The notes under the pieces: generated by a model
Databases searched by the model: none
What the model saw: only the letters and a program-made list of their open reading frames with translations
Told to the model about the DNA's origin: nothing
Part shown: piece by piece, positions 1 to 11,471 of the stretch
Layout: the number at the start of each line of letters is the position of its first letter
Numbering within the stretch: the stretch's first letter is position 1
Program-made: the position numbers and the translations under genes
Assembly: GCA_003445035.1 (NCBI GenBank)
Contig: DLVV01000388.1
Span: forward strand, 45,094-56,564
Direction of reading: 5' to 3'
DNA: 11,471 bases
From: Planctomycetaceae bacterium
GTDB lineage: Bacteria > Planctomycetota > Planctomycetia > Planctomycetales > Planctomycetaceae

Positions 1-660
1 GACGACGTGAAGTTGGCGGTCAAGGCGGGGGCTGACGTGGTGGTGATCGACGGCATGCAGGGTGGCACGGCGGCCACGCAGCAGGTCTTCATCGAACACA
101 CCGGCATTCCCACGCTGGCGGCCTTGCCCCAGGCGGTCGAGGCACTCGAGGAGATGGACATGGCCGGGGAGGTCGGGCTGATCATTTCCGGTGGTATTCG
201 TACCGGTGCCGACGTCGCCAAGGCCCTGGCCCTCGGGGCCGACGCGGTGTCAATCGGCCAGGCCGCGTTGATCGCGCTGGGGTGCAACAACCGTTGCCAC
301 CACGATGGCGAGGGCTGGGTGGATGTGTCTGACGACTACCAGCAGTTGGGTACGGCACCCGGGTTCTGTCACCACTGTCAGACCGGTCGCTGCCCGGTCG
401 GTATCACCACTCAGGATGAACTTCTCGAACAACGACTCTTGCCGGAAAAGGCCGCCGAGTGGGTCCGCAATTACCTGCAGGTGGTCAACATGGAGGTCAC
501 GACACTTGCCCGGGCCTGTGGCAAGTCCGACGTGCATCACCTGGAGCGTGAGGACCTGGCCGCCCTGACGGTCGAAGCCGCCGCCATGGCCCGGATTCCC
601 CTGGCCGGCACCTCCTGGATCCCCGGTTGCAGCACGTCGAACACCGATCCAGGGAGTTGA
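1..660 (+). CDS. mgsC: FMN-binding glutamate synthase-like protein, probable NMG synthase subunit C (5' partial)
   Basis: This is the C-terminal 219 residues of a glutamate synthase large-subunit-type FMN domain; the reading frame is open from base 1 and the true start lies upstream. GADVVVIDGMQGGTAATQ (codons 10-27) and SGGIRTGADVAKALALGADA (codons 64-83) are the substrate and FMN-phosphate loops of this family. Five cysteines follow, at codons 95, 99, 123, 126 and 131, ending in CPVGITTQD; glutamate synthases carry a [3Fe-4S] cluster here. The C-terminal stretch AAAMARIPLAGTSWIPG matches, from memory, GlxD/MgsC proteins of rhizobia and methylotrophs. In the NMG pathway this cytosolic enzyme turns gamma-glutamylmethylamide into N-methylglutamate together with MgsA and MgsB. 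The adjacent gmaS supports MgsC over ordinary GltB. An archaeal-type glutamate synthase large subunit is the main alternative. Confidence 0.8.
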   Translation, partial: DDVKLAVKAGADVVVIDGMQGGTAATQQVFIEHTGIPTLAALPQAVEALEEMDMAGEVGLIISGGIRTGADVAKALALGADAVSIGQAALIALGCNNRCHHDGEGWVDVSDDYQQLGTAPGFCHHCQTGRCPVGITTQDELLEQRLLPEKAAEWVRNYLQVVNMEVTTLARACGKSDVHHLEREDLAALTVEAAAMARIPLAGTSWIPGCSTSNTDPGS

Positions 661-728
661 CCGGTCGCGTGGCACGCGGCCGCAGACGCCTGTAGTATGG
701 GCGGCATCTGGCAGTTTCTATCGGGGCC

Positions 729-733
729 GGGAG
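729..733 (+). promoter_or_regulatory. Ribosome binding site of gmaS
   Basis: GGGAG lies 7 bases before the ATG at 741, which supports that codon as the gmaS start. Confidence 0.5.
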
Positions 734-740
734 ACCCGCG

Positions 741-2099
741 ATGACGACAAGGGACGAAATCAAGGCGAGGATCGAGCAGGACGGAATCGAATTCCTGCTG
801 GTGCAGTTCGTCGACCTCAACGGTACCGCCAAGGTCAAGATGGTGCCGGCCAGTGAACTCGACGCCTGCATCGACAGTGGGGCCGGGTTTGCCGGGGCCG
901 CTCTCTGGGGACTGGGCCAGGGACCTCACGACCACGACATGCTGGCCCGGGTCGACCTGGACAGCTACACCCCGCTGCCGTGGAAACCCAACACCGCCCG
1001 GTTGGCGGGCAACCTCTACGTCGACGACGAGCCCCATCCGTTCTGTGCGCGGACCAACATGGTGAGGGTGCTTGATGCCGCCCGCGAGCAGGGATACCTG
1101 TTCAACATCGGGATGGAGCCCGAACATTTTCTGGTCACCCGCAACGAAGACGGATCGATTTCTCCATGGGACCCGGGCGGTGTCGATCACCTCGAGAAGC
1201 CCTGCTACGACTTTCGCTCGATGGCTCCGGCGATGGACTACCTGCAGGAACTGACCAGTTCACTCAATGCACTGGATTGGGGGGTCTACCAGACCGACCA
1301 CGAGGACGGCAACGGGCAGTACGAGGTCAATTTCGACTACCAGGACGCGCTGACCACCGCGGACAGGGTCACGTTCTTCAAGATGGCGACCTCACAGATT
1401 GCCGCCAAGTACGGTGCGATCGCCACGCACATGCCCAAGCCGTTTGCCGATCGCACGGGCAGCGGGCTGCACGTGCACTTCCATGTCGCCGATGCCGAGA
1501 CGGGTGGGAACCTCTTCCTGGACGAATCGGATGCCCGGGGGCTGGGACTCTCGCAGTTCGCCTACCACTTCCTGGGTGGCGTGCTGGCCCACGCTCCGGC
1601 CCTGGTGGCCGTCACCTGCCCGACGGTCAATTGCTACAAGCGTTTGAAGCTGGGTTCGGGACTGCAGGGAAGCCGCTCGGGATTCACCTGGACGCCAGCC
1701 TTCATCAGCTACGGAGACAACAATCGCACCCAGATGATCCGCACCGCCGGACCGGGCCACGTTGAGGACCGAACGGTCTCGGCCGGTTGCAATCCGTATC
1801 TCGGCCTGGCCGCCTACCTGGCGGCCGGACTTGACGGAGTCGAGAATCAGATCGATCCCGGGGAACCCAACCTCGGGAACCTTTATGAGAAAACGCTCGA
1901 AGAGATCAGCGAGGCGGGAATCAGCATTCTCCCGCAATCACTCGGGGAATCCCTGGCCGCGTTGAAGAACGATGCGGTGGTCCAGGGGGGACTGGGCGTG
2001 ATTGCCGACGAATTCATCGATGTCAAGACCCGCGAACTCGAGACCAGCGAACAGCAAGTCACGTCGTGGGAGATCGACCGCTACTTGACGTTGTTCTAG
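741..2099 (+). CDS. gmaS: Type III glutamine synthetase family, probable gamma-glutamylmethylamide synthetase
   Basis: The 452-residue protein has the length and motifs of the GlnT/GmaS branch of the glutamine synthetase superfamily. GmaS ligates methylamine to the gamma-carboxyl of glutamate using ATP, the entry step of the NMG pathway. Likely metal and nucleotide ligands are visible: E126 and E128 in GMEPEHF, E188 and E195 in HEDGNGQYEVNF, H244 in GSGLHVHFHV, NNRTQMIR at 327-334, and E342 and R344 before CNPYL. The N-terminal beta-grasp half runs from about 15 to 100 (IEFLLVQFVDLNG, GAGFAGAALWG, PLPWKP). After NCYKR (297-301), the YEAP segment that holds the ammonium-shielding glutamate of classical GS is replaced by a Gly/Ser-rich stretch before FTWTPAF. 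This fits a larger amine substrate (inference). Flanking mgsC and mgd genes make GmaS more likely than a plain glutamine synthetase, but sequence alone cannot exclude ammonia or another amine. Confidence 0.82.
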   Translation: MTTRDEIKARIEQDGIEFLLVQFVDLNGTAKVKMVPASELDACIDSGAGFAGAALWGLGQGPHDHDMLARVDLDSYTPLPWKPNTARLAGNLYVDDEPHPFCARTNMVRVLDAAREQGYLFNIGMEPEHFLVTRNEDGSISPWDPGGVDHLEKPCYDFRSMAPAMDYLQELTSSLNALDWGVYQTDHEDGNGQYEVNFDYQDALTTADRVTFFKMATSQIAAKYGAIATHMPKPFADRTGSGLHVHFHVADAETGGNLFLDESDARGLGLSQFAYHFLGGVLAHAPALVAVTCPTVNCYKRLKLGSGLQGSRSGFTWTPAFISYGDNNRTQMIRTAGPGHVEDRTVSAGCNPYLGLAAYLAAGLDGVENQIDPGEPNLGNLYEKTLEEISEAGISILPQSLGESLAALKNDAVVQGGLGVIADEFIDVKTRELETSEQQVTSWEIDRYLTLF

Positions 2100-2166
2100 C
2101 GCGGAATCGGAGACGAGGCACACAGGGATGGACCGGTGTCCGTGGATGACCGGGGCCAGCAGGGAA

Positions 2167-2170
2167 GGGA
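2167..2170 (+). promoter_or_regulatory. Ribosome binding site deciding the mgdB start
   Basis: GGGA, within a purine-rich stretch AGGGAAGGGAAG from 2161, lies 7 bases before the GTG at 2178. It favours that GTG over an in-frame GTG at 2136, which would add 14 residues not expected in the family. Confidence 0.45.
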
Positions 2171-2177
2171 AGACGGC

Positions 2178-2471
2178 GTGTCGGTAATGATTCCGTGTCC
2201 GCACTGCGAGCGGCGTCCAGCGGGCGAATTTCACTTCGGTGGCCCGTTGCGTGACCGGCCCGGGCCGGAAGCACCGACCGGGGAGTGGATCGCCTACACC
2301 TACGACCAGCCCAATCTTCGGTCAGTCCAGTGGGAGTGGTGGTTCCACCGTGCGGCCTGCCGGCAGTGGTTCCTGGTCCGCCGCGACACCCGGACCAACC
2401 AGGTGTTGGAATCAGCGATGCCCGGCGAGGTGGCAACCGGAATGCCCGAAGGTGAGGCCGGCGATGAGTAG
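2178..2471 (+). CDS. mgdB: Sarcosine oxidase delta-type subunit, probable NMG dehydrogenase subunit B
   Basis: This small zinc-binding subunit (97 residues from GTG 2178) belongs to heterotetrameric sarcosine oxidase/NMG dehydrogenase complexes. Delta subunits bind one zinc ion through two N-terminal cysteines plus a later His and Cys. All four are visible: C7 and C10 in IPCPHC, and H57 and C61 in WWFHRAACRQWF. The family normally opens with a few residues before IPCPHC, which is why the GTG at 2178 is chosen; GTG 2136 and ATG 2187 are in-frame alternatives. Length is in the usual range of about 85 to 110 residues. Its stop overlaps the start of mgdC by 8 bases, indicating coupled translation. 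The C-terminal tail after about residue 80 is acidic and probably disordered. Confidence 0.85.
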   Translation: MSVMIPCPHCERRPAGEFHFGGPLRDRPGPEAPTGEWIAYTYDQPNLRSVQWEWWFHRAACRQWFLVRRDTRTNQVLESAMPGEVATGMPEGEAGDE

Positions 2472-5250
2472 CCAGGAGGGCCCTTGCACGTTCACCTTTG
2501 ACGGCCGGTCGATCACCGCTGCTCCTGGCCAGACGATTGCCGGCGCGCTGCACCAGGCCGGTGTGCACGTGGTGTCACGGAGCTTCAAGTACCACCGGGC
2601 CCGCGGCCTGTTCTGCGCGACGGGCCGTTGTCCCAACTGTCTGTGTACGGTTGACGGTGATCCCAACGTGAGGACGTGCGTCACGCCGGCCAGGCCGGAC
2701 ATGGCCGTTCGCAGCCAGAATGCGTGGCCGGGACTGAAGTGGGACGTGTTGTCGATTTTCGACCGCCTGCACCGGTTCATGCCCGTCGGTTTCTATTACC
2801 GGGTCATGCACAAGCCGCGGTTCCTCTGGCCCGTGTTTGAGGCAATCGTCCGCCGGATCGCCGGACTGGGACGTGTCGACCGTCAGTCTGGCGGCCGACG
2901 ACGTTACGACCGCCAGACGTTGCACAGTGACGTGGTCGTGATCGGCGGAGGCTGGGCGGGAATGCACGCCGCGATTGAGGCCTCGCGTGGTGGTTGCGAT
3001 GTGACGCTGGTGGATGACCGTGAGGAACTGGGCGGGCACGCATTGTTTGACCCGGTTTCGTGGGTGGAACGCGAGCCCGAATTTCTGTCCACGGTCCAGG
3101 CGGTTGTGGATGATCCCCGGATCCGGGTGTTGAAGAGGGCGACGGCGTTTGGCTGTTACGAGGACCGGCTGGTGGCTGTCCAGGCCGGAGATCGGATGAT
3201 CCGATTGCGAGCCGGCCAGGTTGTTGTTGCCACCGGCGGGTGGGAGAAACCGCTGGTCTTCCCGGGCAATGATCGTCCTGGCGTGATGTTGGCCAGCGGC
3301 GTCCAGCAGATGTTGTGGCGGGACGGATGCGAGTTTCCCGGTGACGTGGTCGTCGTGACCGACAATCCGAGTGGCTACCACGCGGCCCATGCCCTGAGGG
3401 CCAGGGGCACGCGGGTCGTGGCTGTCGTGGACCACAACGAGACCCCGGCAGCCGATCCCGGTGACCTGCCGGTCCGGACGGGACAGACCATCCATTCTGT
3501 GAGTGGCAGACGTCATGTCACGTCCGCGGTTGTCGGGCCGCTGGATGCCGCGGCGGCTTCAAGCGAATCGATACGCTGTCGCTGGGTTGTCCAGGCCGTC
3601 GGATTCACGACAGCTTCCGGGTTGCTGGCTCAGGCCGGTTGCCGATTGGTCCACGACGAGTCGCGTGACCTGTTCCGCGTTGATCGCTTTGCGGACGGCT
3701 TCCGTGCCGCGGGTGCGGTGAACGGAACCTTCGACATCGACGCGTGTGCCCGTGAGGGGCGGCTGGCTGGAGAAGTGGCGGCGGCCGGGGAGGGGGGCGG
3801 GTCCATTGACATAACGCCTTCGGAGACTTCGCCACCGGTGCGGCGGCCCCCACAGGGAAAGAAGGCGTTTGTCTGCTTGTGCGAGGACGTGACCGAAAAG
3901 GACCTGTTTGATGCGGTTGCCGAGGGGTTCTCGAACATTGAAACGCTGAAGCGATACTCCACCGTCTGCATGGGGCCCTGCCAGGGCAAGATGTGCCAGT
4001 CCGGTTCCATTGACGCGTGTGCCCGGGCCAATGGGAAGACTGTTGCCGAGACCGGTCGGACGACAGCCCGTCCGCCCGATCAGCCGGTGCCATTGGGAGT
4101 GTTGGCCGGACGAGCTCCACATCGGCACCTGGTACGACGAACGGCATTGCACGACTGGCACACCGAAGCCGGTGCGGTGTTCCTTGATTCGGGAGCCTGG
4201 AAACGGCCCGAGTCGTACGGCGATCCGTCAGCCGAATACCAGGTGGTACGCGAGGGGGTTGGCCTGATCGACGTGTCGACTCTCGGCAAGCTCGAGTTGC
4301 GGGGCCGCGACGTGGCCGAGTTTCTCGAGTTCGTCTACCCGAACCGTTTCGCGAAGTTGAAGGTCGGCCGGGTGAGATATGGAGTGGTCTGTGACGAAGC
4401 GGGGATCATTCTTGATGACGGCACGATCGCTCGCCTGGAAGAAGACCGCTGGTTTCTGACGACCACCACCGGTAACGCCGATGGAGTGGATAGCTGGTTT
4501 CGCTGGTGGCTGGCCACCCGTCCCGACTGGGACGTTCGGCTGACGAATGTCAGTGGAGCGACGGCGGCGATGAACCTGGCGGGGCCGATGAGCCGGCAGG
4601 TGCTGTCGGCGGTGTGCGACGGCGACCTGTCGACCGAAGCGGTGCCGTATCTTGCGGCATCGCAGCTGACCGTTGCCGGCGTGCCGGCGATCGTGTTACG
4701 GATCGGGTTCGTGGGAGAACTGGGATACGAGATCCATGTGCCCAGCCACCTGGCCGAGCACGTCTGGCGTGAGCTGATGGCCGCCGGTGCCGAGTCCGGG
4801 ATCCGTCCGTTCGGTATCGAAGCCCAGAGACGTCTGAGGCTCGACAAGCAGCATCTGCTGGCCGGACAGGACACCGACGCACTGTCGAATCCCTTTGACG
4901 CCGGGTTGCCCTGGATCGTCAAGCTCGACAAGCCCGACTTCGTTGGCCGGAGTGCATTGCAGAGGGCCCAGGGACGTGAACGGGGCCAGCAACTGGTCGG
5001 TTTTCGGCTCGAGGGGGACCGGGTGCCGCCGGAGCCGTCCCTGGTGCTCGTTGACGGGCGGCTCGAAGGTCGTGTCACCAGTGCCCGTTATTCTCCGGTG
5101 GCCGGGGCAACCGTCGGGCTAGCGTGGGTGCCGGCCGAGTCGGCCGGGAACGGCCAGCAGATCACCATCCAGTTGGACGGACAACTGGTCAATGCCGTGG
5201 TTCAACGTGAACCGTTTTACGATCCCGAGGGCACCCGGCTGAAAAGCTGA
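2464..5250 (+). CDS. mgdC: Sarcosine oxidase alpha-type subunit with two predicted Fe-S sites, probable NMG dehydrogenase subunit C
   Basis: The 928-residue subunit starts at ATG 2464, preceded by AGGTGAGG at 2450-2457. Domains in order: (1) residues about 5-80, a Fer2_4-type ferredoxin domain with SFKYHRARG then C51, C56, C59 and C72 (C-x4-C-x2-C-x12-C); (2) about 155-460, an FAD/NAD Rossmann flavoprotein domain with GGGWAG at 161-166 and ATGGWEKP; (3) about 468-525, a BFD-like [2Fe-2S] domain with C471, C473, C506 and C511 (CLCEDVT, CMGPCQGKMC); (4) about 555-925, a GcvT-like folate-binding domain with DVSTLGKLEL, RFAKLKVGRVRYG and FGIEAQRRLRLDK. The GcvT half is expected to transfer the released carbon to tetrahydrofolate. 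The alpha subunit of classical tetrameric sarcosine oxidase lacks these cysteine sets, as I recall, so this one may pass electrons on as a dehydrogenase. Subunit assignment is firm; substrate is inferred from neighbours. Confidence 0.87.
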   Translation: MSSQEGPCTFTFDGRSITAAPGQTIAGALHQAGVHVVSRSFKYHRARGLFCATGRCPNCLCTVDGDPNVRTCVTPARPDMAVRSQNAWPGLKWDVLSIFDRLHRFMPVGFYYRVMHKPRFLWPVFEAIVRRIAGLGRVDRQSGGRRRYDRQTLHSDVVVIGGGWAGMHAAIEASRGGCDVTLVDDREELGGHALFDPVSWVEREPEFLSTVQAVVDDPRIRVLKRATAFGCYEDRLVAVQAGDRMIRLRAGQVVVATGGWEKPLVFPGNDRPGVMLASGVQQMLWRDGCEFPGDVVVVTDNPSGYHAAHALRARGTRVVAVVDHNETPAADPGDLPVRTGQTIHSVSGRRHVTSAVVGPLDAAAASSESIRCRWVVQAVGFTTASGLLAQAGCRLVHDESRDLFRVDRFADGFRAAGAVNGTFDIDACAREGRLAGEVAAAGEGGGSIDITPSETSPPVRRPPQGKKAFVCLCEDVTEKDLFDAVAEGFSNIETLKRYSTVCMGPCQGKMCQSGSIDACARANGKTVAETGRTTARPPDQPVPLGVLAGRAPHRHLVRRTALHDWHTEAGAVFLDSGAWKRPESYGDPSAEYQVVREGVGLIDVSTLGKLELRGRDVAEFLEFVYPNRFAKLKVGRVRYGVVCDEAGIILDDGTIARLEEDRWFLTTTTGNADGVDSWFRWWLATRPDWDVRLTNVSGATAAMNLAGPMSRQVLSAVCDGDLSTEAVPYLAASQLTVAGVPAIVLRIGFVGELGYEIHVPSHLAEHVWRELMAAGAESGIRPFGIEAQRRLRLDKQHLLAGQDTDALSNPFDAGLPWIVKLDKPDFVGRSALQRAQGRERGQQLVGFRLEGDRVPPEPSLVLVDGRLEGRVTSARYSPVAGATVGLAWVPAESAGNGQQITIQLDGQLVNAVVQREPFYDPEGTRLKS

Positions 5251-5258
5251 GCGATAAC

Positions 5259-5262
5259 AGGA
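5259..5262 (+). promoter_or_regulatory. Weak ribosome binding site of mgdD
   Basis: AGGA lies 10 bases before ATG 5273, a longer spacing than for the other genes of the operon. The 22-base gap after mgdC contains nothing else recognisable. Confidence 0.35.
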
Positions 5263-5272
5263 CCACACCGAG

Positions 5273-5941
5273 ATGATCTCACCCAAATCAGTTCCGACGG
5301 CCCGCGGCCCACTGGTCGCCTGGCACCGTCGCGCCGGCGGGCGGATGGAGACGGTCGGGGGCTGGGAAATCTGTGTGAGTCATCCGGCCGAAGATGGCCC
5401 GTCCGCTGACACCGGCAACCTGCTGCTCGACTGGTCTCATCGGTCGGTGACCGAACTCGGAGGGCCGAGGGTCGGCGAGTTGGTCCGGGGCCTGGTCGGC
5501 ACCGATGTGGCGGTTCGTCGAATGGCGGCCGGTCGCGCGGGGATCATCTGCCGGTTGACACCGGCCCGGGCGATCATTTTCGGCGACCCCGGTCCCGAGG
5601 TGCTCGGCGATCCAGCGGTGGTCGATGTGACCGGCGGCTGGGCGACGATCGTGCTGTCCGGCCCGGATGCGGTCAACATTCTCTCGCTGCTCACCACGGC
5701 GGATCTCCGCACTCGCGCGATGCCGGTGGCTGCCGTCCGGCAAGGTCCGATCGCCGGCATCAACACGCTGCTGTGCCATTTTGCCGGACATTGGGAACTG
5801 CACGGCTGTCCCGATTCGATTGTGTCGCTCTGGGAAGCCCTGCTCGATGAGGGCCAGGCTTATGGGCTCCAGGTCGCCGGTGCGGAACGTCTGGGCGATG
5901 TGGTGACGGTTGGCGGTGGTGGCGAGGAGGGCCAGTCGTGA
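5273..5941 (+). CDS. mgdD: Sarcosine oxidase gamma-type subunit, probable NMG dehydrogenase subunit D
   Basis: The 222-residue protein sits in the position and has the size of the gamma subunit of heterotetrameric sarcosine oxidases, a small protein with a truncated GcvT/YgfZ-like fold. The clearest match is DVTGGWATIVLSGPDAVNI (codons about 118-136), resembling the family's segment in which an aromatic residue precedes LSGPDA, followed by a loop and VRQGPIAGINTLL. No cofactor ligands are expected. The gamma subunit is poorly conserved, so the call leans on position between the alpha and beta genes. Its TGA overlaps the GTG start of mgdA (GTGA, 5938-5941). The Gly-rich C-terminal tail encodes part of the mgdA ribosome binding site. 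No signal peptide or membrane segment is seen. Confidence 0.75.
   Translation: MISPKSVPTARGPLVAWHRRAGGRMETVGGWEICVSHPAEDGPSADTGNLLLDWSHRSVTELGGPRVGELVRGLVGTDVAVRRMAAGRAGIICRLTPARAIIFGDPGPEVLGDPAVVDVTGGWATIVLSGPDAVNILSLLTTADLRTRAMPVAAVRQGPIAGINTLLCHFAGHWELHGCPDSIVSLWEALLDEGQAYGLQVAGAERLGDVVTVGGGGEEGQS
5924..5931 (+). promoter_or_regulatory. Ribosome binding site deciding the mgdA start
   Basis: GAGGAGGG lies 6 bases before GTG 5938 and is the strongest Shine-Dalgarno match in the window. It supports the GTG start over ATG 5950, four codons in. Confidence 0.6.
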
Positions 5942-7134
5942 CGGATCGGATGTGGCGAGATCACGACCTGAAGGACGCCTACGATGTCGTCATCATCGGA
6001 GGCGGCGTTCACGGACTGGCAACGGCCTATTACCTGGCCCAGCAGGGCGTGACCAACGTCGCGGTGCTCGAGGCCCGCTACGTGGGGTTTGGAGGGTCTG
6101 GCCGCAACACCGCCATCGTTCGTTCCAACTACCGTACACCCGAGGGCATCGCCTTCTATGATCACTCGGTCAAGCTCTACGAGAAGCTGGCCGGTGAACT
6201 CGACTACAACATCATGTTTTCTCAGCGGGGACACCTGACGCTGGCACACACCGAACGGGGTGTCAGTGGTCTTCGTGAACGGGCCCTGACCAACCAGCTC
6301 TGTGGGGTCAATTCGCGGCTGATCTTCCCTGACGAAATCCGCCAGCACGTTCCCGACATGCAACTGGAAGGGTCGCTGCGATATCCGGTGATGGCCGCAC
6401 TGTACCACCCGTCCGGTGGAATCATCCGGCACGATGCGGTCGTGTGGGCCTACGCCCGAGGTGCCGATGCGGGAGGAGTGCACGTGCACCAGTTGACCGA
6501 GGTGACCGACCTGGAGGTGACTGACGGGGCGATCAGCGGCGTGATGACCAACCGGGGGCGGGTCAAGGCCGGTGCGGTGGTCAACGCAACGGCCGGTTAC
6601 GCCAGCACGATCGCCGCGATGGCCGGTCGGCAGATCCCGCTCGAGACACACCCGCTGCAGGCGTTGGTCACCGAGCCGCTCAAACCGTGGCTGCATTCGG
6701 TGATTGTCAGCTCGACGCTCCACGTCTACGTCTCGCAGACGGATCGGGGCGAGCTGGTGATCGGAGCGGAGGTCGACGACTACGCGAGTTACTCGTTGCG
6801 AGGCACACTGCCATTCGCAGAGAGTGCGGCGACACACCTGCTGGAGCTGTTTCCGTTCCTGGCCAATGTCCGGATGCTCCGGCAGTGGGCCGGGCTGTGT
6901 GACATGACCCCCGATTACTCGCCGATCATCGGTGAGGATCCGTTAGTCAAGGGGCTGTTCATGACGGTCGGTTGGGGAACCTACGGCTTCAAGGCCGGGC
7001 CGGCTTCGGGGCACCTTTTGGCCGAGATGATCGCCAGCGGCCGCACGCCGGAACGGCTGGAGCCGTTTTCTCCAGGCCGGTTTGCCGAGGATCGTCTTGT
7101 GGGCGAGAAGGCGGCGGCCAGCGTGTCGCACTAG
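5938..7134 (+). CDS. mgdA: Sarcosine oxidase beta-type subunit, probable NMG dehydrogenase subunit A
   Basis: The 398-residue protein is a DAO-family flavoprotein and the catalytic beta subunit, which oxidises the N-methyl amine. GGGVHG at 21-26 is the dinucleotide-binding loop for FAD. GGSGRNTAIVRSNY (residues about 52-65) is the conserved beta-subunit stretch after the ADP-binding fold. H165, in RHDAVVWAYARGAD, corresponds to the histidine that carries covalent FMN in tetrameric sarcosine oxidases. The C-terminal TPDYSPIIGEDP and GWGTYGFKAGPASGHLLAE complete the family signature. Length matches the usual 390 to 410 residues. It starts at GTG overlapping the mgdD stop. In described NMG operons the beta gene usually comes first; here it is last. 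Ordinary sarcosine oxidase or dimethylglycine oxidase is the alternative, and the gmaS/mgsC neighbours favour N-methylglutamate as substrate. Confidence 0.85.
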   Translation: MTDRMWRDHDLKDAYDVVIIGGGVHGLATAYYLAQQGVTNVAVLEARYVGFGGSGRNTAIVRSNYRTPEGIAFYDHSVKLYEKLAGELDYNIMFSQRGHLTLAHTERGVSGLRERALTNQLCGVNSRLIFPDEIRQHVPDMQLEGSLRYPVMAALYHPSGGIIRHDAVVWAYARGADAGGVHVHQLTEVTDLEVTDGAISGVMTNRGRVKAGAVVNATAGYASTIAAMAGRQIPLETHPLQALVTEPLKPWLHSVIVSSTLHVYVSQTDRGELVIGAEVDDYASYSLRGTLPFAESAATHLLELFPFLANVRMLRQWAGLCDMTPDYSPIIGEDPLVKGLFMTVGWGTYGFKAGPASGHLLAEMIASGRTPERLEPFSPGRFAEDRLVGEKAAASVSH

Positions 7135-7139
7135 CGGGC

Positions 7140-8453
7140 CTACAGCGTCCATCCCTTGCGGTATTCCCGCTTGACGATGGCAGCGGCTTCGGGGCAGTCG
7201 ACAGCCTGTGCGGCGGCGGCATCCCAGGTGATCTTCTTTTGGCCGAGCCGGTACGAGAGGTTGCCCAGGTGACCACATTCGGACAGCAGGGCCCCGTAAC
7301 GGAAGTTGCAGGTGGTGTTGGTGTTGCCGCTGCGGATCGCCTGCAGGAACTCGTTGTGGTGTCCCACCGAGTCGGCGATCGTTGGCTTGACCGGCTTGGC
7401 ATCTTTTCCGGCAGCCATGAACAGCTTGCGGGTCGTGTAGTCGGCCAGGACACGGCCATCGGACCCCTCGAAGAGCACAGCTGAGCCCTTGCCGTACGAT
7501 TCGGCCCCCTTGGGCTTCAATCCACCGTGGTACCACGTGATGTGGACGGCCGGCCGGTCTTCGGTTGCATCGAAGTGGTAATCGACCTTCATCTTGTTCG
7601 GGCACTGGTTGTCGCCGTTGTGGCCCTTCTGGCCGGTGGCGTGAACGCGGCTGGGGTACTTCAGTCCCAGGGACCAGTACGGCAGGTCCATGTAGTGGCA
7701 GACGAAGTCGGCGAGTTGTCCGCCACCGAAGTCCCACCAGTAGCGCCAGTTGAAGTGGAAGTGCGAGGTGTGGAAGGGGCGGGCTGGTGCGGGGCCGAGC
7801 CACCGGTCGTAGTTGACGTGCTTGGGCGGAGTGCCCTGCTTGACGCGTTGTCCGACGCGGACACCGCCACCCTGCCAGACGTGCACCCGCCGGACTTCTC
7901 CGATCACACCACCCTGGACCATCTCGACCACGCGACGATAGTTGTTCTGCGGATGGTTGTGGATCTGGTTGCCCATCTGTGTGACCGCCTTCCGCTCGGC
8001 GGTCAACCGCGAGATCACGCGGGCTTCGTGGATCGAGTGTGTCAACGGCTTTTCGCAGTAGACGGCCAGGCCGCGTTTCAGTGCTGCGACAACCGGGATG
8101 GCGTGCATGTGGTCGGGCGTGCTCACGACGACCCCGTCGAGATCCTTGACGTCAAAGACGCGTCGGAAGTCGTCGGTGGTCTTGGCCTTGGGATGTTTGG
8201 CGGCGGCGGCGGCAAGTCGCTGGGCGTCTATGTCGCACAGCACGACGATGTTCTCTCCGCTGACGCCCGACAGGTTGGCGCCTCCACGTCCCGCCACTCC
8301 GATGACGGCCAGGTTGAGCTTTTCGTTGGCACTTCGCTTCTCGGCGGCTTCGGCCGCGGTCCAGTTGCCGGCCAGCGGCAGGGTTGTGCCTGCGGCAACG
8401 GCGGCCTGGAGGAAGTCACGGCGGGAGTGGTTGTGCTTGTGGCGAGAGGTCAT
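7140..8453 (-). CDS. Tat-exported Gfo/Idh/MocA family oxidoreductase
   Basis: The 437-residue protein starts at ATG 8453, with GGAG 6 bases upstream. A twin-arginine signal, HSRRDFLQAAVAAG (R11, R12), with a short hydrophobic stretch and a likely cleavage near AEAAEK (residues about 33-39), predicts export in folded form with NAD(P) bound. LAVIGVAGRGG (48-58) is the Rossmann loop, CEKPLTHS (133-140) holds the lysine of the family EKP motif, and WWDFGGGQLADFVCHYMDLP (239-258) is the conserved C-terminal substrate-side region with H253. Family members oxidise or epimerise sugars, inositols and related polyols; the substrate here is unknown. This Tat-exported architecture is very abundant in planctomycetes and is the best taxonomic hint in the window. 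It converges on mgdA with 4 to 5 bases between stops and has no evident functional tie to it. Confidence 0.87.
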   Translation of the reverse strand: MTSRHKHNHSRRDFLQAAVAAGTTLPLAGNWTAAEAAEKRSANEKLNLAVIGVAGRGGANLSGVSGENIVVLCDIDAQRLAAAAAKHPKAKTTDDFRRVFDVKDLDGVVVSTPDHMHAIPVVAALKRGLAVYCEKPLTHSIHEARVISRLTAERKAVTQMGNQIHNHPQNNYRRVVEMVQGGVIGEVRRVHVWQGGGVRVGQRVKQGTPPKHVNYDRWLGPAPARPFHTSHFHFNWRYWWDFGGGQLADFVCHYMDLPYWSLGLKYPSRVHATGQKGHNGDNQCPNKMKVDYHFDATEDRPAVHITWYHGGLKPKGAESYGKGSAVLFEGSDGRVLADYTTRKLFMAAGKDAKPVKPTIADSVGHHNEFLQAIRSGNTNTTCNFRYGALLSECGHLGNLSYRLGQKKITWDAAAAQAVDCPEAAAIVKREYRKGWTL

Positions 8454-8459
8454 GGGGAA

Positions 8460-8463
8460 CTCC
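8460..8463 (-). promoter_or_regulatory. Ribosome binding site of the Gfo/Idh/MocA gene
   Basis: GGAG (minus strand) lies 6 bases upstream of ATG 8453. It supports that start over an in-frame TTG at 8471, which would put non-family residues before the Tat signal. Confidence 0.5.
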
Positions 8464-8524
8464 GAGTGCAAAAGAAGGCTGGAGCCATTCGACCCGATTG
8501 CGTTCCGAGATGCAATGGCCCGCC

Positions 8525-10042
8525 TCAGGCCGGTTCACCCAGGGCGGCTTCCAGTTCGCTCAGCAACTGATCGAGACGGAAGGGCTTGTAGAGCACGGCC
8601 TCCAGGCTGCCCGACTGGCGGGCCTGGACGATCGAGTGCGACGGATCGTAGCCGAAGCCCGTCATCAGGATCACAGGCACCGAGTCGTTGATCTCGCGGA
8701 GCTGGCAAAAGCACTCGTAGCCGGACATGTCCGCAAGCCGGATGTCGGCCACGACGGTGTCGTAGTGGAACTGTCGAAGCATCAGGCAGGCCGACTCGCC
8801 GTTGTGAGCCGTTTCGACCTCGCAGCCGAATCGCTCGAGCAGTTCGTGGGCGGCACGGCGAATCGTGTCGTCTCCATCAACAAACAGCACCCGCTTGTCT
8901 CGAAGACGTGGCCGTTGCTGGCGTCCGGGTGGCGGAAGATGACTGCGTCGTGGAGCAATCGACTCGCCCACCTCGTGCACCAGTTGCTTGATCTCTCGGG
9001 TGTGTTCCAGGATCTGGTTGAGTCGTTCACAGACGTCGGGTTCGTGGCCGATGTAGCGTTCGAGCACCCAGGCGGCGTCGTTGAGGATCACGTCGACGGG
9101 TCCGGCCACTTCCCGAAGGATCCTCTCGGTGCTTTCCGAGACCGTCGTCGCCTTTTCGGCCACGAGCAGTTCCAGCGTGTTGAGGGCGACAGAGAGTTCA
9201 CGGCTGAAGAGTTCCAGAAACTGCAGGTCGTCTTCTGAGAACGCGCCGGGTTTGGGACTCTCGACATTGAACGTGCCGAGGATCTCGTCGTGCAGCATCA
9301 GTGGCACGGTCAGTGAACTGCGAGCATCGGGCGCTCCGGCCAGGTACAGGGGATCACTCTCGGTGTCCTCACACAGGTAGCTCTTTCCCGTGGCCGCGAC
9401 GAAACCGGTCACACCGTTTCCATCGGGACGTGCAAACAGCTTGCGATTGGCCGCGTCGTCTCTCATGCCGATCGCCAGCAACGGCAGCAGTTCCAGCGTC
9501 TCCCGTTCGGTCAACCGGATCTCGAGGTTCTCGTATTCGAGCAGGTCGCGGGTGAAGTGCGAGATCTTGGCCTTGAGCAGTTCGATGCGATCTTCGACGC
9601 TCATCTCGAGGATCTCTTGCGGCATCAGGTCTCCGAGTTCGAGCCCGGCCTGGTGGATCGCGTTGAGCTTCTCCTGCTGTTGGACCTGTGAGGAGACATC
9701 ACGAACAAGGGCGATCAGGGAACCAACCTCGCCGTCGTCAGAATTGGTCTCACCGTCCAACAGCGGCGTGACATGCACGTCGTAGAACCGCTTTTCGTCG
9801 AGCTTCAATGTGCTGCGTGCCGGTTGGGCTCGGCCGATGGCGGTGTGGAACGGACAGAGGTCCGGCCCGAGGATCTCCGGCGATCCAAACAGGTCGTAGA
9901 AGCCGAGACCGATGGGCAGCTCGTCGCTCTGCGCCAGCTCGCGCAGTCGATCGTTGCACCACGTGATTTCGAGAGAGGGGTCGAGGACGGCCACACCGGC
10001 CGGCAACTGTTCCAGCACCTCGCTCAGTGCCATTTGCGACAC
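8525..10042 (-). CDS. PAS-GAF-receiver signalling protein with degenerate histidine kinase core
   Basis: This 505-residue cytosolic protein has no membrane segment. Domains: PAS at about 5-120 (GVAVLDPSLEITWCNDRLRE, ending ALVRDVSSQVQQQEKL); GAF at about 127-295 (GVTGFVAATGKSYLCED, then LGTFNVESPKPGAFSEDD); a helical segment at about 300-365; and a receiver domain at about 384-502. The receiver looks functional: acidic pocket D389/D391/D392, phosphoacceptor D433 in VADIRL, T461 in MTGFG and K486 in YKPF. The helical segment resembles a DHp dimerisation domain: ILREVAGPV at 308-316 aligns with the usual H-box but has R310 where the phosphorylated His belongs, and no ATPase domain follows. It therefore probably receives phosphate from a separate kinase, while PAS and GAF sense a small ligand or redox state. 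Target and output are unknown. GTG 10042 is preferred over ATG 10033 because of ribosome-site spacing. Confidence 0.8.
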   Translation of the reverse strand: MSQMALSEVLEQLPAGVAVLDPSLEITWCNDRLRELAQSDELPIGLGFYDLFGSPEILGPDLCPFHTAIGRAQPARSTLKLDEKRFYDVHVTPLLDGETNSDDGEVGSLIALVRDVSSQVQQQEKLNAIHQAGLELGDLMPQEILEMSVEDRIELLKAKISHFTRDLLEYENLEIRLTERETLELLPLLAIGMRDDAANRKLFARPDGNGVTGFVAATGKSYLCEDTESDPLYLAGAPDARSSLTVPLMLHDEILGTFNVESPKPGAFSEDDLQFLELFSRELSVALNTLELLVAEKATTVSESTERILREVAGPVDVILNDAAWVLERYIGHEPDVCERLNQILEHTREIKQLVHEVGESIAPRRSHLPPPGRQQRPRLRDKRVLFVDGDDTIRRAAHELLERFGCEVETAHNGESACLMLRQFHYDTVVADIRLADMSGYECFCQLREINDSVPVILMTGFGYDPSHSIVQARQSGSLEAVLYKPFRLDQLLSELEAALGEPA

Positions 10043-10160: not shown

Positions 10161-11198
10161 CTAGACACCGGACCGGATGAACAACTCGTCGCCATCCTGG
10201 ACGACATAGTCTTTCCCCTCGATGTGCCACAGCCCGGCCGCCTTGACCTCCTTCTCGCCACCCAGTTCCAGCAGCTTGTCACACGGAGTCACCTCCGCAC
10301 GGATGAATCCCCGGGCGAGGTCCGAGTGGATCGAGTCGGCGGCATCGACGGCGGTCAAGCCGCGACGGAGCAGCCAGGCGTGGACCTCTTTCTCGGCACA
10401 GGTGTAGAAGGTGATCAGGTCGGCGGTTTGCAGGATCGCCTGCATCAGTTCCTGGCGACAGCTGCCGGTGAGTCCAAGTTCCGAGGCCATCTCGGCGCGG
10501 TCGGTCTCGTCGAGTGCTTCGAGTTCGAGTTCGAGTCCGACGGCGGCGACCATCACCTTGTGGCCGGCCGTCTCCAGGGCGGCAACGATGTCGGAGTTTG
10601 GATCGGGTTCGGCGGTGTTGATCAGGACCAGGCGTTGCTTGAGTGTCAGTAGAGAGAACGAGCGGGTGATCCGTTCCTGGGTTTCGTTCAGTTCGACACC
10701 GTCCAGGTTGAGGTCACGTTCCAGGGCTTCGGACAGGGGCCTCAACGCCTCGAGCTCGGCCTGCAATTCGTCCCGATCGGGACGTGGCTTGGTGGCATCG
10801 ACTTCGAGCCGGCTGACCCGGTTGGAGACGATCTGCAGGTCCGCCAGGGCCAGCTCTTCCGAGAAACGATCGACTTCCTCGATCGCCTCGGCACCGCTGA
10901 AGGCACCGACTACCTGCACCAGCGCCTGGGCCTCGCGGATCACTCCCAGGCGTTGCGTGTTGACATCCTGCTGTCGCGGATCGAGGCCCGGAGTGTCGAA
11001 CAGTTCGATCCGGGCAGGAACCTCCTTGCCGGGCCGATAGTGCTTGACCAGGGCGTCGAAACGGGCGTCGGCGACGGTGGCCAGCCCGACTTGTCCGCTG
11101 TGTGCCTTGGATGGATCAGGGGCGGTTCCGGTCAGCAATTCGAAGACGGTGCTCTTGCCGCCGCCCTGGAATCCGACGAGTCCGGTTTTCATGGGCAT
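10161..11198 (-). CDS. YchF-like P-loop GTPase/ATPase with TGS domain (divergent)
   Basis: The 345-residue protein belongs to the Obg-related YchF (DUF933) group. GFQGGGKST at 9-17 is the Walker A loop, DTPGL at 68-72 the DxxG motif, and NTAE at 194-197 replaces the GTPase NKxD, as in YchF/OLA1 proteins that prefer ATP. A helical region (about 112-185) is inserted, and the C-terminal TGS domain (about 260-345) is very well conserved: EKEVHAWLLRRG, GFIRAEV and GKDYVVQDGDELF. YchF proteins bind nucleotide and interact with ribosomes, and some act in stress or redox responses. Oddities: DTPGL instead of the usual DIAGL, loss of the GEGLGN segment that normally follows, and GGG in Walker A instead of an NVG-type loop. 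It is therefore probably a paralogue rather than standard YchF. ATG 11192 is an alternative start with a better-spaced GGG. Confidence 0.82.
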   Translation of the reverse strand: MPMKTGLVGFQGGGKSTVFELLTGTAPDPSKAHSGQVGLATVADARFDALVKHYRPGKEVPARIELFDTPGLDPRQQDVNTQRLGVIREAQALVQVVGAFSGAEAIEEVDRFSEELALADLQIVSNRVSRLEVDATKPRPDRDELQAELEALRPLSEALERDLNLDGVELNETQERITRSFSLLTLKQRLVLINTAEPDPNSDIVAALETAGHKVMVAAVGLELELEALDETDRAEMASELGLTGSCRQELMQAILQTADLITFYTCAEKEVHAWLLRRGLTAVDAADSIHSDLARGFIRAEVTPCDKLLELGGEKEVKAAGLWHIEGKDYVVQDGDELFIRSGV

Positions 11199-11225: not shown

Positions 11226-11471
11226 TCAAAAAAAGGACTCGCCGCCGATTGCGGGGAAGGCGTCACGATAGTGGTCGATGCGAGGTGTTTCGGAGTCGTC
11301 TTCGAAAAGAATGCCGACGATGTCGAAGCGGGCCGGGCAATCGAGAAGGTCGTGTTGCTTGAGGTAACTGAGGGCCAGGCGTGTGAGTTGCCGTTGTTTG
11401 GCTGGCGTGATCGATTCGAACGGGGATCCCGCTCGCTCGTTGCTTCGGGTCTTGACCTCGACAAAGACCAG
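11226..11471 (-). CDS. YraN/UPF0102 family endonuclease-like protein (5' partial)
   Basis: The C-terminal 81 residues are present; the start lies beyond the right edge. The frame opens with LVFVEVKTRSNERAGSP, the characteristic (V/E)FVEVKTR motif of the UPF0102/YraN family, whose PD-(D/E)xK nuclease-like fold uses the Glu and Lys of EVK. It is followed by the family's SITPAKQRQLTRLALSYL helix and a RFDIVGI strand near the end. Family members are about 120 residues long, so roughly 40 residues are missing, including the preceding catalytic Asp. The cellular role is poorly known; a nuclease activity is inferred from the fold. It ends 27 bases before the YchF-like start on the same strand, so the two are probably co-transcribed. 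The tail GGESFF after the last strand ends in a run of T bases in the coding strand. Confidence 0.85.
   Translation of the reverse strand: MVFVEVKTRSNERAGSPFESITPAKQRQLTRLALSYLKQHDLLDCPARFDIVGILFEDDSETPRIDHYRDAFPAIGGESFF

Follow-up and report, generated by a model that had tools for sequence, protein, structure and literature searches.

Among the closest described systems is the N-methylglutamate (NMG) pathway of Methyloversatilis universalis FAM5, whose genes gmas-mgsABC-mgdABCD form one run of eight (PMC5023235; this and all other papers are cited from excerpts of their text). According to those excerpts, loss of mgsC or mgdD abolishes the growth of FAM5 on methylamine; a fae1 mutant did not grow on methylamine, and revertants are discussed. 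The dehydrogenase genes of this system are of the soxBDAG type, ordered beta-delta-alpha-gamma (PMC3160333). Methylamine is described as a marine source of nitrogen and one-carbon (C1) units, with gmaS as its marker gene (PMC7948447). In this study, I analyzed a stretch of 11,471 nucleotides from a Planctomycetaceae bacterium (assembly GCA_003445035.1, contig DLVV01000388.1, positions 45,094 to 56,564), hereafter called the window, which is the end of contig C417 (G000:C417:45094-56564). Positions 1 to 7134 hold the 3′ part of mgsC, gmaS, and then the genes for the delta, alpha, gamma, and beta subunits of a sarcosine-oxidase-type complex, all on the plus strand. With its upstream genes the locus resembles the FAM5 cluster in having eight genes in one run, here all pointing the same way, and the same inferred steps, but its dehydrogenase order is delta-alpha-gamma-beta. 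The related heterotetrameric sarcosine oxidase is an oxidase whose genes usually have the order beta-delta-alpha-gamma. It was found that the unusual gene order marks a second, conserved dehydrogenase lineage of an iron-sulfur type, as seen in the genes, their order, the cysteines of the alpha subunit, the trees, and the genomic context.

Gene order and cysteine sets mark a second dehydrogenase lineage

The features of the locus are as follows.

Window 1..660, plus strand: 3′ part of mgsC, N-methylglutamate synthase subunit C, flavin mononucleotide (FMN) glutamate-synthase domain (PF01645, Glu_synthase, 148 bits)
Window 741..2099, plus strand: gmaS, gamma-glutamylmethylamide synthetase (TIGR03105, 531.8 bits against a cut-off of 469.6)
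Window 2136..2471, plus strand: open reading frame (ORF) of the delta subunit, SoxD/MgdB type (SoxD PF04267, 77 bits; likely start, the ATG at 2187)
Window 2464..5250, plus strand: alpha subunit, SoxA/MgdC type, with ferredoxin-like, flavin adenine dinucleotide (FAD), BFD-like, and GcvT domains
Window 2614..2679, plus strand: N-terminal [2Fe-2S]-type set of alpha, C51, C56, C59, and C72 (C-x4-C-x2-C-x12-C)
Window 3874..3996, plus strand: BFD-like [2Fe-2S]-type set of alpha, C471, C473, C506, and C511 (bacterioferritin-ferredoxin type)
Window 5273..5941, plus strand: divergent gamma subunit, SoxG/MgdD type (weak partial GCV_T match; SoxG 34.4 bits, below the cut-off)
Window 5938..7134, plus strand: beta subunit, SoxB/MgdA type, a flavoprotein (DAO 243 bits; sarcosine oxidase beta 1vrq_B 350 bits)
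Window 6430..6432, plus strand: His165 of beta, aligned with the sarcosine oxidase beta His
L004:17023-17757, upstream of the window: 5′ part of mgsC

Although its ORF opens at 2239, the alpha gene itself begins at 2464. The junctions are tight, since the delta and alpha genes overlap, the gamma and beta genes overlap, and only 22 bases lie between alpha and gamma. Gene calls and domain models thus bore out the initial annotation, which had described a tight operon of mgsC, gmaS, and four subunit genes in this order. All NCBIfam sox models scored below their curated cut-offs (alpha 755/1164, beta 467.9/529.5, delta 64.5/116.5, gamma 34.4/144). Counterparts of the divergent gamma gene, 80-97% identical, occupy the equivalent position in the loci L008-L010. 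Two alpha proteins of 1225 and 1214 residues (P0230 and P0240) have a SoxG domain match and are perhaps alpha-gamma fusions, which would fit the adjacent gene order.

Both cysteine sets, which the initial annotation had not noted, track the gene order over 73 aligned alpha sequences without exception. The N-terminal set is present in all 33 alpha rows from delta-alpha-first loci and in 0 of the 40 others, while the BFD-like set is present in 31/31 delta-alpha-first rows reaching the site and in 0/38 of the other rows reaching it. Where the iron-sulfur lineage reads MGPCQGKMC, the other lineage reads MGPSQGKLS or MATDQGKTS. Among the 120 best database homologues of alpha, 116 have both sets; the remaining four, at 852-877 residues, are shorter, lack the first set, and begin inside or past it. 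The profile of the N-terminal domain matches subunits of complex I (75 kDa), formate dehydrogenase, and hydrogenase. Each of the two domains has four conserved cysteines at a known [2Fe-2S] spacing, the second site being the weaker one. A CxC and CQGxxC pattern is also seen in the L-proline dehydrogenase alpha PH1363 (1y56_A), which shares the FAD and BFD-like region; however, this protein is shorter (493 residues), aligns only to model residues 1-549 and so has no GcvT half, and is named for a different substrate.

His165 of beta, which aligns with the sarcosine oxidase His that presumably carries FMN, is His in 24/24 beta rows of the iron-sulfur lineage and in 43/43 others, a comparison that left out L089, L095, and L098. 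In delta, C21, C24, H71, and C75 are kept in 34-35 of 35 rows of the iron-sulfur lineage; I take this C-C-H-C set to be of the zinc type, as in heterotetrameric sarcosine oxidase. In the delta rows of the other lineage, the positions of C24 and C75 are mostly occupied by Asn and Ser, respectively. The heterotetrameric sarcosine oxidase of Corynebacterium (1vrq, 2gag) has homologous alpha and beta subunits, the FMN-type His, the delta C-C-H-C set, and a full-length alpha fold that the predicted model of alpha resembles, and its delta and gamma subunits are alike by family models. However, its alpha subunit has no cysteines at either iron-sulfur position.

Is this order a rearrangement of the known one, as the initial annotation had it? 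The dehydrogenase genes were classified in 80 named loci drawn by gmaS similarity. The first dehydrogenase gene is delta in 34 loci (33 as delta-alpha; L057 shows delta only) and beta in 31 (4 of them seen only as gmaS-beta), while none was seen in the examined stretch of 15 loci, for some of which the contig ends there. The delta-first loci belong to Chloroflexota (17), Planctomycetota (14), SAR324 (1), Latescibacterota (1), and Verrucomicrobiota (1), and the beta-first loci to Planctomycetota (23), Latescibacterota (4), Gemmatimonadota (2), Verrucomicrobiota (1), and Spirochaetota (1). In the delta-first loci of Chloroflexota, gamma was seen only as a GcvT-like match between alpha and beta. 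Thus, a private rearrangement was rejected; with 34/80 loci delta-first, the order is that of a distinct lineage in five groups, and other planctomycetes keep beta-delta-alpha beside a close gmaS.

The beta-delta-alpha-gamma order that the initial annotation gave for the known enzyme was found to be right (PMC5023235, PMC3160333). On proteobacterial plasmid records where a tetramer lies close to gmaS, its genes read beta-delta-alpha(-gamma), either in a shared run with gmaS or in divergent orientation (Acidithiobacillus L088, Paracoccus L092, Rhizobium L097, and others). The alpha subunits of the proteobacterial relatives L088, L091, L092, L094, L096, and L097 lack both cysteine sets, and the window departs from the proteobacterial MgdABCD type in gene order and in the grouping of alpha. 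The beta-delta-alpha clusters of other Planctomycetota, Latescibacterota, and Gemmatimonadota have gmaS, mostly with mgsABC, and their GmaS is 69-77% identical to that of the window. In contrast, their beta is only 52-56% and their alpha 36-41% identical (tblastn), with Ser, Asp, or other residues at the cysteine positions. No electron-transfer partner of the iron-sulfur lineage was recognised among the 30 largest neighbour clusters, which were viewed without family-library annotation.

Some loci have peculiar arrangements. In L065 (Latescibacterota), mgsABC lies between the delta and alpha genes. L044, L045, L085, and L087 have divergent mgs genes (32-60% identical) on the strand opposite gmaS, with only mgsA seen in L087. 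L051 comes from a metagenome-assembled genome (MAG) that bears the title Candidatus Kuenenia stuttgartiensis, probably wrongly; in the trees its cluster lies close to records titled Planctomyces.

The pathway genes and their co-occurrence

Genes for mgsA, mgsB, and the 5′ part of mgsC were found just upstream on the same contig (L004:15390-17757), where the initial annotation had proposed to look for the first two. The mgsA gene encodes a class II amidotransferase whose frame reads MCGIVG, the usual Cys being preceded by Met, and mgsB encodes a GXGXG domain. A run of 332 N (L004:17763-18094) splits mgsC immediately before the window, and the halves were searched separately. The 3′ part is 60-74% identical to mgsC of the proteobacterial NMG clusters L088, L091, L092, and L096, and 58% to that of L097. 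In L008, L009, and L010, whose gmaS is 94-99% identical, the gene run is equivalent and the mgsC parts are contiguous, with no gap. These closest named loci are MAGs titled Planctomycetaceae bacterium (the title of L008 contains TaraRedSea), in agreement with the planctomycete origin that had been guessed from the letters. A scan upstream of mgsA for promoters and terminators found nothing. With a GmaS-type gmaS, linked mgsA, mgsB, and mgsC, and linked genes for a four-subunit dehydrogenase, there is good support for a complete NMG operon in this marine planctomycete.

The assignment of gmaS as such, rather than as a glutamine synthetase gene, held up in both scores and residues. Among the PDB sequences, the best match is 9qur, 'Glutamate--methylamine ligase' (426 bits), followed by RhGmaS 7cql (322 bits), and glutamine synthetases score 228 bits at most. 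All 18 RhGmaS positions checked, those named in the excerpts of PMC7948447, are kept. Among them, the GmaS-specific K30′, A48′, Y147, Q175, D177, N188, H237, and W300 differ or fall in a gap at 8/8 positions in two solved glutamine synthetases. The ammonia-site Asp50′ and the Glu-flap Glu of glutamine synthetase are Ala and Trp in the window, matching RhGmaS (PMC7948447). In the GmaS tree, the window lies within an 81-row non-proteobacterial clade (support 99), beside clades with two solved GmaS proteins. Two glutamine synthetases served as the root of this tree, so the tree alone is no evidence that they fall outside GmaS, and the scores and residues carry the claim. The window's own four-row gmaS clade lies near beta-first rows, a placement that is poorly supported. 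The genome has two further synthetase-like genes, at C28 and C200. The C200 gene (G000:C200:7139-8239; L003, L007) is glutamine-synthetase-like and has the GmaS-type Lys, Tyr, Asn, His, and Trp at five special positions, but it departs from GmaS at A48 (Glu), Q175 (Asn), and D177 (Lys).

Since loci chosen by gmaS could not test co-location, alpha was used as the query in 392 genomes of the phylum. Seven genomes have a match at E<=1e-100, of which five (G000, G373, G161, G120, and G057) are of the iron-sulfur type by motif, the G057 motifs being found in a wider stretch (L126); in G166 and G239 the cysteine motifs were not found. In all five iron-sulfur genomes, mgs genes lie in the same run as alpha, and in 4/5 gmaS is also there. 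It lies downstream of beta in G057 and G161, and beside soxB on a separate contig in G120. The trait is patchy, since gmaS at E<=1e-100 was found in 11/392 genomes.

Trees and competing explanations

All trees were quick searches without bootstrap, with long-branch warnings. A single branch separates the iron-sulfur alphas (28 rows out of 64) from the others, the proteobacterial MgdABCD-type lineage among them (Shimodaira-Hasegawa-like approximate likelihood-ratio test (SH-aLRT) 100). The iron-sulfur betas also fall on one side of a branch (24 of 66 rows, SH-aLRT 92) when L089, L095, L098, and L109 are dropped; with these long rows kept, two changes are required. In the gmaS tree, holding all 37 beta-first rows together was rejected by the approximately unbiased (AU) test (p 1.4e-51), which presumes a group named beforehand. 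The beta-first planctomycetes have a gmaS that groups with the iron-sulfur-type gmaS and a beta that groups with that of Acidithiobacillus L088 (99), on the sarcosine oxidase side. Thus, the trees indicate that the dehydrogenase module has been exchanged relative to gmaS. When distant single-chain relatives are used as the root, the other lineage and sarcosine oxidase come together (94) and the iron-sulfur rows lie at the base with poorly supported branching; this fits an iron-sulfur ancestor, on very long branches.

It is probable that mgsABC-gmaS-delta-alpha-gamma-beta encodes the NMG route with a distinct iron-sulfur N-methylglutamate dehydrogenase, although I infer the substrate, clusters, acceptor, and physiology. 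Judging from its residues and kinship, GmaS would couple methylamine to glutamate using ATP, and MgsABC would form N-methylglutamate. By homology, the heterotetrameric flavoenzyme would oxidise this to glutamate, and the methyl group would leave as formaldehyde or methylene-tetrahydrofolate. Electrons likely leave the flavins by way of the two predicted alpha clusters and reach an external acceptor, which would make the enzyme a dehydrogenase and not an H2O2-forming oxidase. A wider proposal is a class of iron-sulfur N-methylglutamate dehydrogenases with two [2Fe-2S] clusters that does not need oxygen, is standard in SAR202 Chloroflexota and many Planctomycetota, and represents the ancestral state, the clusters having been lost in the known N-methylglutamate dehydrogenase and sarcosine oxidase. 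I hold this only tentatively, at somewhat less than an even chance.

Several observations weigh against the NMG assignment with an iron-sulfur dehydrogenase. I know of no activity for any member, and a different N-methyl amino acid may be the substrate. The second alpha site has weak ferredoxin matches (the bacterioferritin-associated ferredoxins 6e6r/6e6s). Co-location with gmaS in the 80 loci holds by construction, and the sample independent of gmaS selection is small, at five genomes. The modules are separable: in G218 and G302 (L120 and L121), two near-complete genomes from this family, no dehydrogenase gene adjoins mgsABC-gmaS, and a genome-wide search gave no alpha match at E<=1e-100. 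Finally, identities to Methylobacterium bullatum L091 (gmaS 40%, alpha 35%, mgsC 77%/60% by halves) equal or fall below the published screening cut-offs (gmaS >40%, alpha >35%, mgsC >81%; excerpts of PMC5023228), which were set for proteobacteria with another Methylobacterium as the query.

Might the enzyme simply be an ordinary NMG dehydrogenase working like the proteobacterial MgdABCD, its cysteines being structural leftovers and its gene order neutral? The same four subunit types and the same neighbours, the FMN-type His in 67/67 beta rows compared, and a predicted full alpha model that aligns with sarcosine oxidase alpha would all suit this. Nevertheless, it is unlikely, as all eight cysteines are present in every complete member across five groups and in none of the other lineage. 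Leftovers would be expected to decay, as they did in the other lineage. A role in betaine breakdown, with the tetramer acting as a sarcosine or dimethylglycine dehydrogenase and lying beside gmaS by chance, is still less likely. Many database entries do label alpha 'sarcosine oxidase subunit alpha', and SAR202 genomes have been interpreted in this way in the excerpts of PMC5395668. However, 5/5 iron-sulfur alphas found independently of gmaS sit with mgs genes, beta separates from the solved sarcosine oxidase in the tree, and no second full-length alpha gene was found in the bacterium's own genome, which gave partial matches only.

If the pathway instead served a different small amine, for example ethylamine, GmaS would be a gamma-glutamylamide synthetase of relaxed specificity; this would be in keeping with an engineering paper that applies GmaS to ethylamine (PMC7677707) and with the finding of no DmmD-type methylated-amine oxygenase in the genome. 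Against it, a C1 product is in line with both the Fae branch and the GcvT/folate portion of alpha, and all listed methylamine-site residues are kept, which makes this explanation highly improbable. The NMG route with an iron-sulfur dehydrogenase remains the preferred assignment.

Fate of the C1 unit and meaning of the lineage

The same genome encodes Fae (230 bits), followed by a neighbouring gene with the N-terminal domain of methylene-tetrahydromethanopterin (H4MPT) dehydrogenase. In this 97% complete genome, no formate-tetrahydrofolate ligase (FTHFS) was found, nor any HODM_asu-like gene (a DmmD-type methylated-amine monooxygenase, for upstream use of dimethylamine). The initial annotation had suggested growth on methylated amines or nitrogen gain from them. 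Because FTHFS and a DmmD-type gene were not found, growth on methylamine as a carbon source, with carbon assimilation, is not supported. The likely use here is nitrogen gain together with C1 oxidation by way of Fae and the H4MPT branch.

The remaining genes of the window lie on the minus strand. A GFO/IDH/MocA oxidoreductase gene (7140-8471), a gene for a YchF-type GTPase (10161-11198; 187 bits against a curated cut-off of 279), and the end piece of a YraN-family gene (11226-11471) are unrelated to the operon. The protein encoded at 8525-10042 has PAS, GAF, and receiver domains, and Pfam found no kinase or DNA-binding domain in it.

The initial annotation had also spoken of a lineage not usually credited with this metabolism. 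That is not quite so, as methylotrophy or C1 metabolism in Planctomycetota was suggested before (PMC9874027). NMG genes were reported in Binatota (PMC8262859), and the same excerpts cite signs of methylotrophy, including methylamine oxidation, in Gemmatimonadetes, Chloroflexi, and others. Thus, the NMG pathway outside proteobacteria as such is not new. Among the matches listed, from openly licensed PMC papers, no report was found of an iron-sulfur N-methylglutamate dehydrogenase or of NMG in Planctomycetota or Chloroflexi, and no methylamine terms were found in the planctomycete papers checked among them. For SAR202 genomes, a multimeric sarcosine oxidase acting in the breakdown of choline has been reported (PMC5395668). 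The SAR202-titled loci L077 and L086 have sarcosine-oxidase-type genes beside gmaS, and L086 also has mgsABC.

The NMG operons of Planctomycetota, Chloroflexota, SAR324, Latescibacterota, and Gemmatimonadota widen the range of likely methylamine users well past proteobacteria. Part of what has been reported as 'sarcosine oxidase' in SAR202 may be genes for methylamine use. If the iron-sulfur dehydrogenase is real, a different by-product (no H2O2) and a different electron route would be expected, and the descent of sarcosine oxidase from an iron-sulfur dehydrogenase becomes a testable question.

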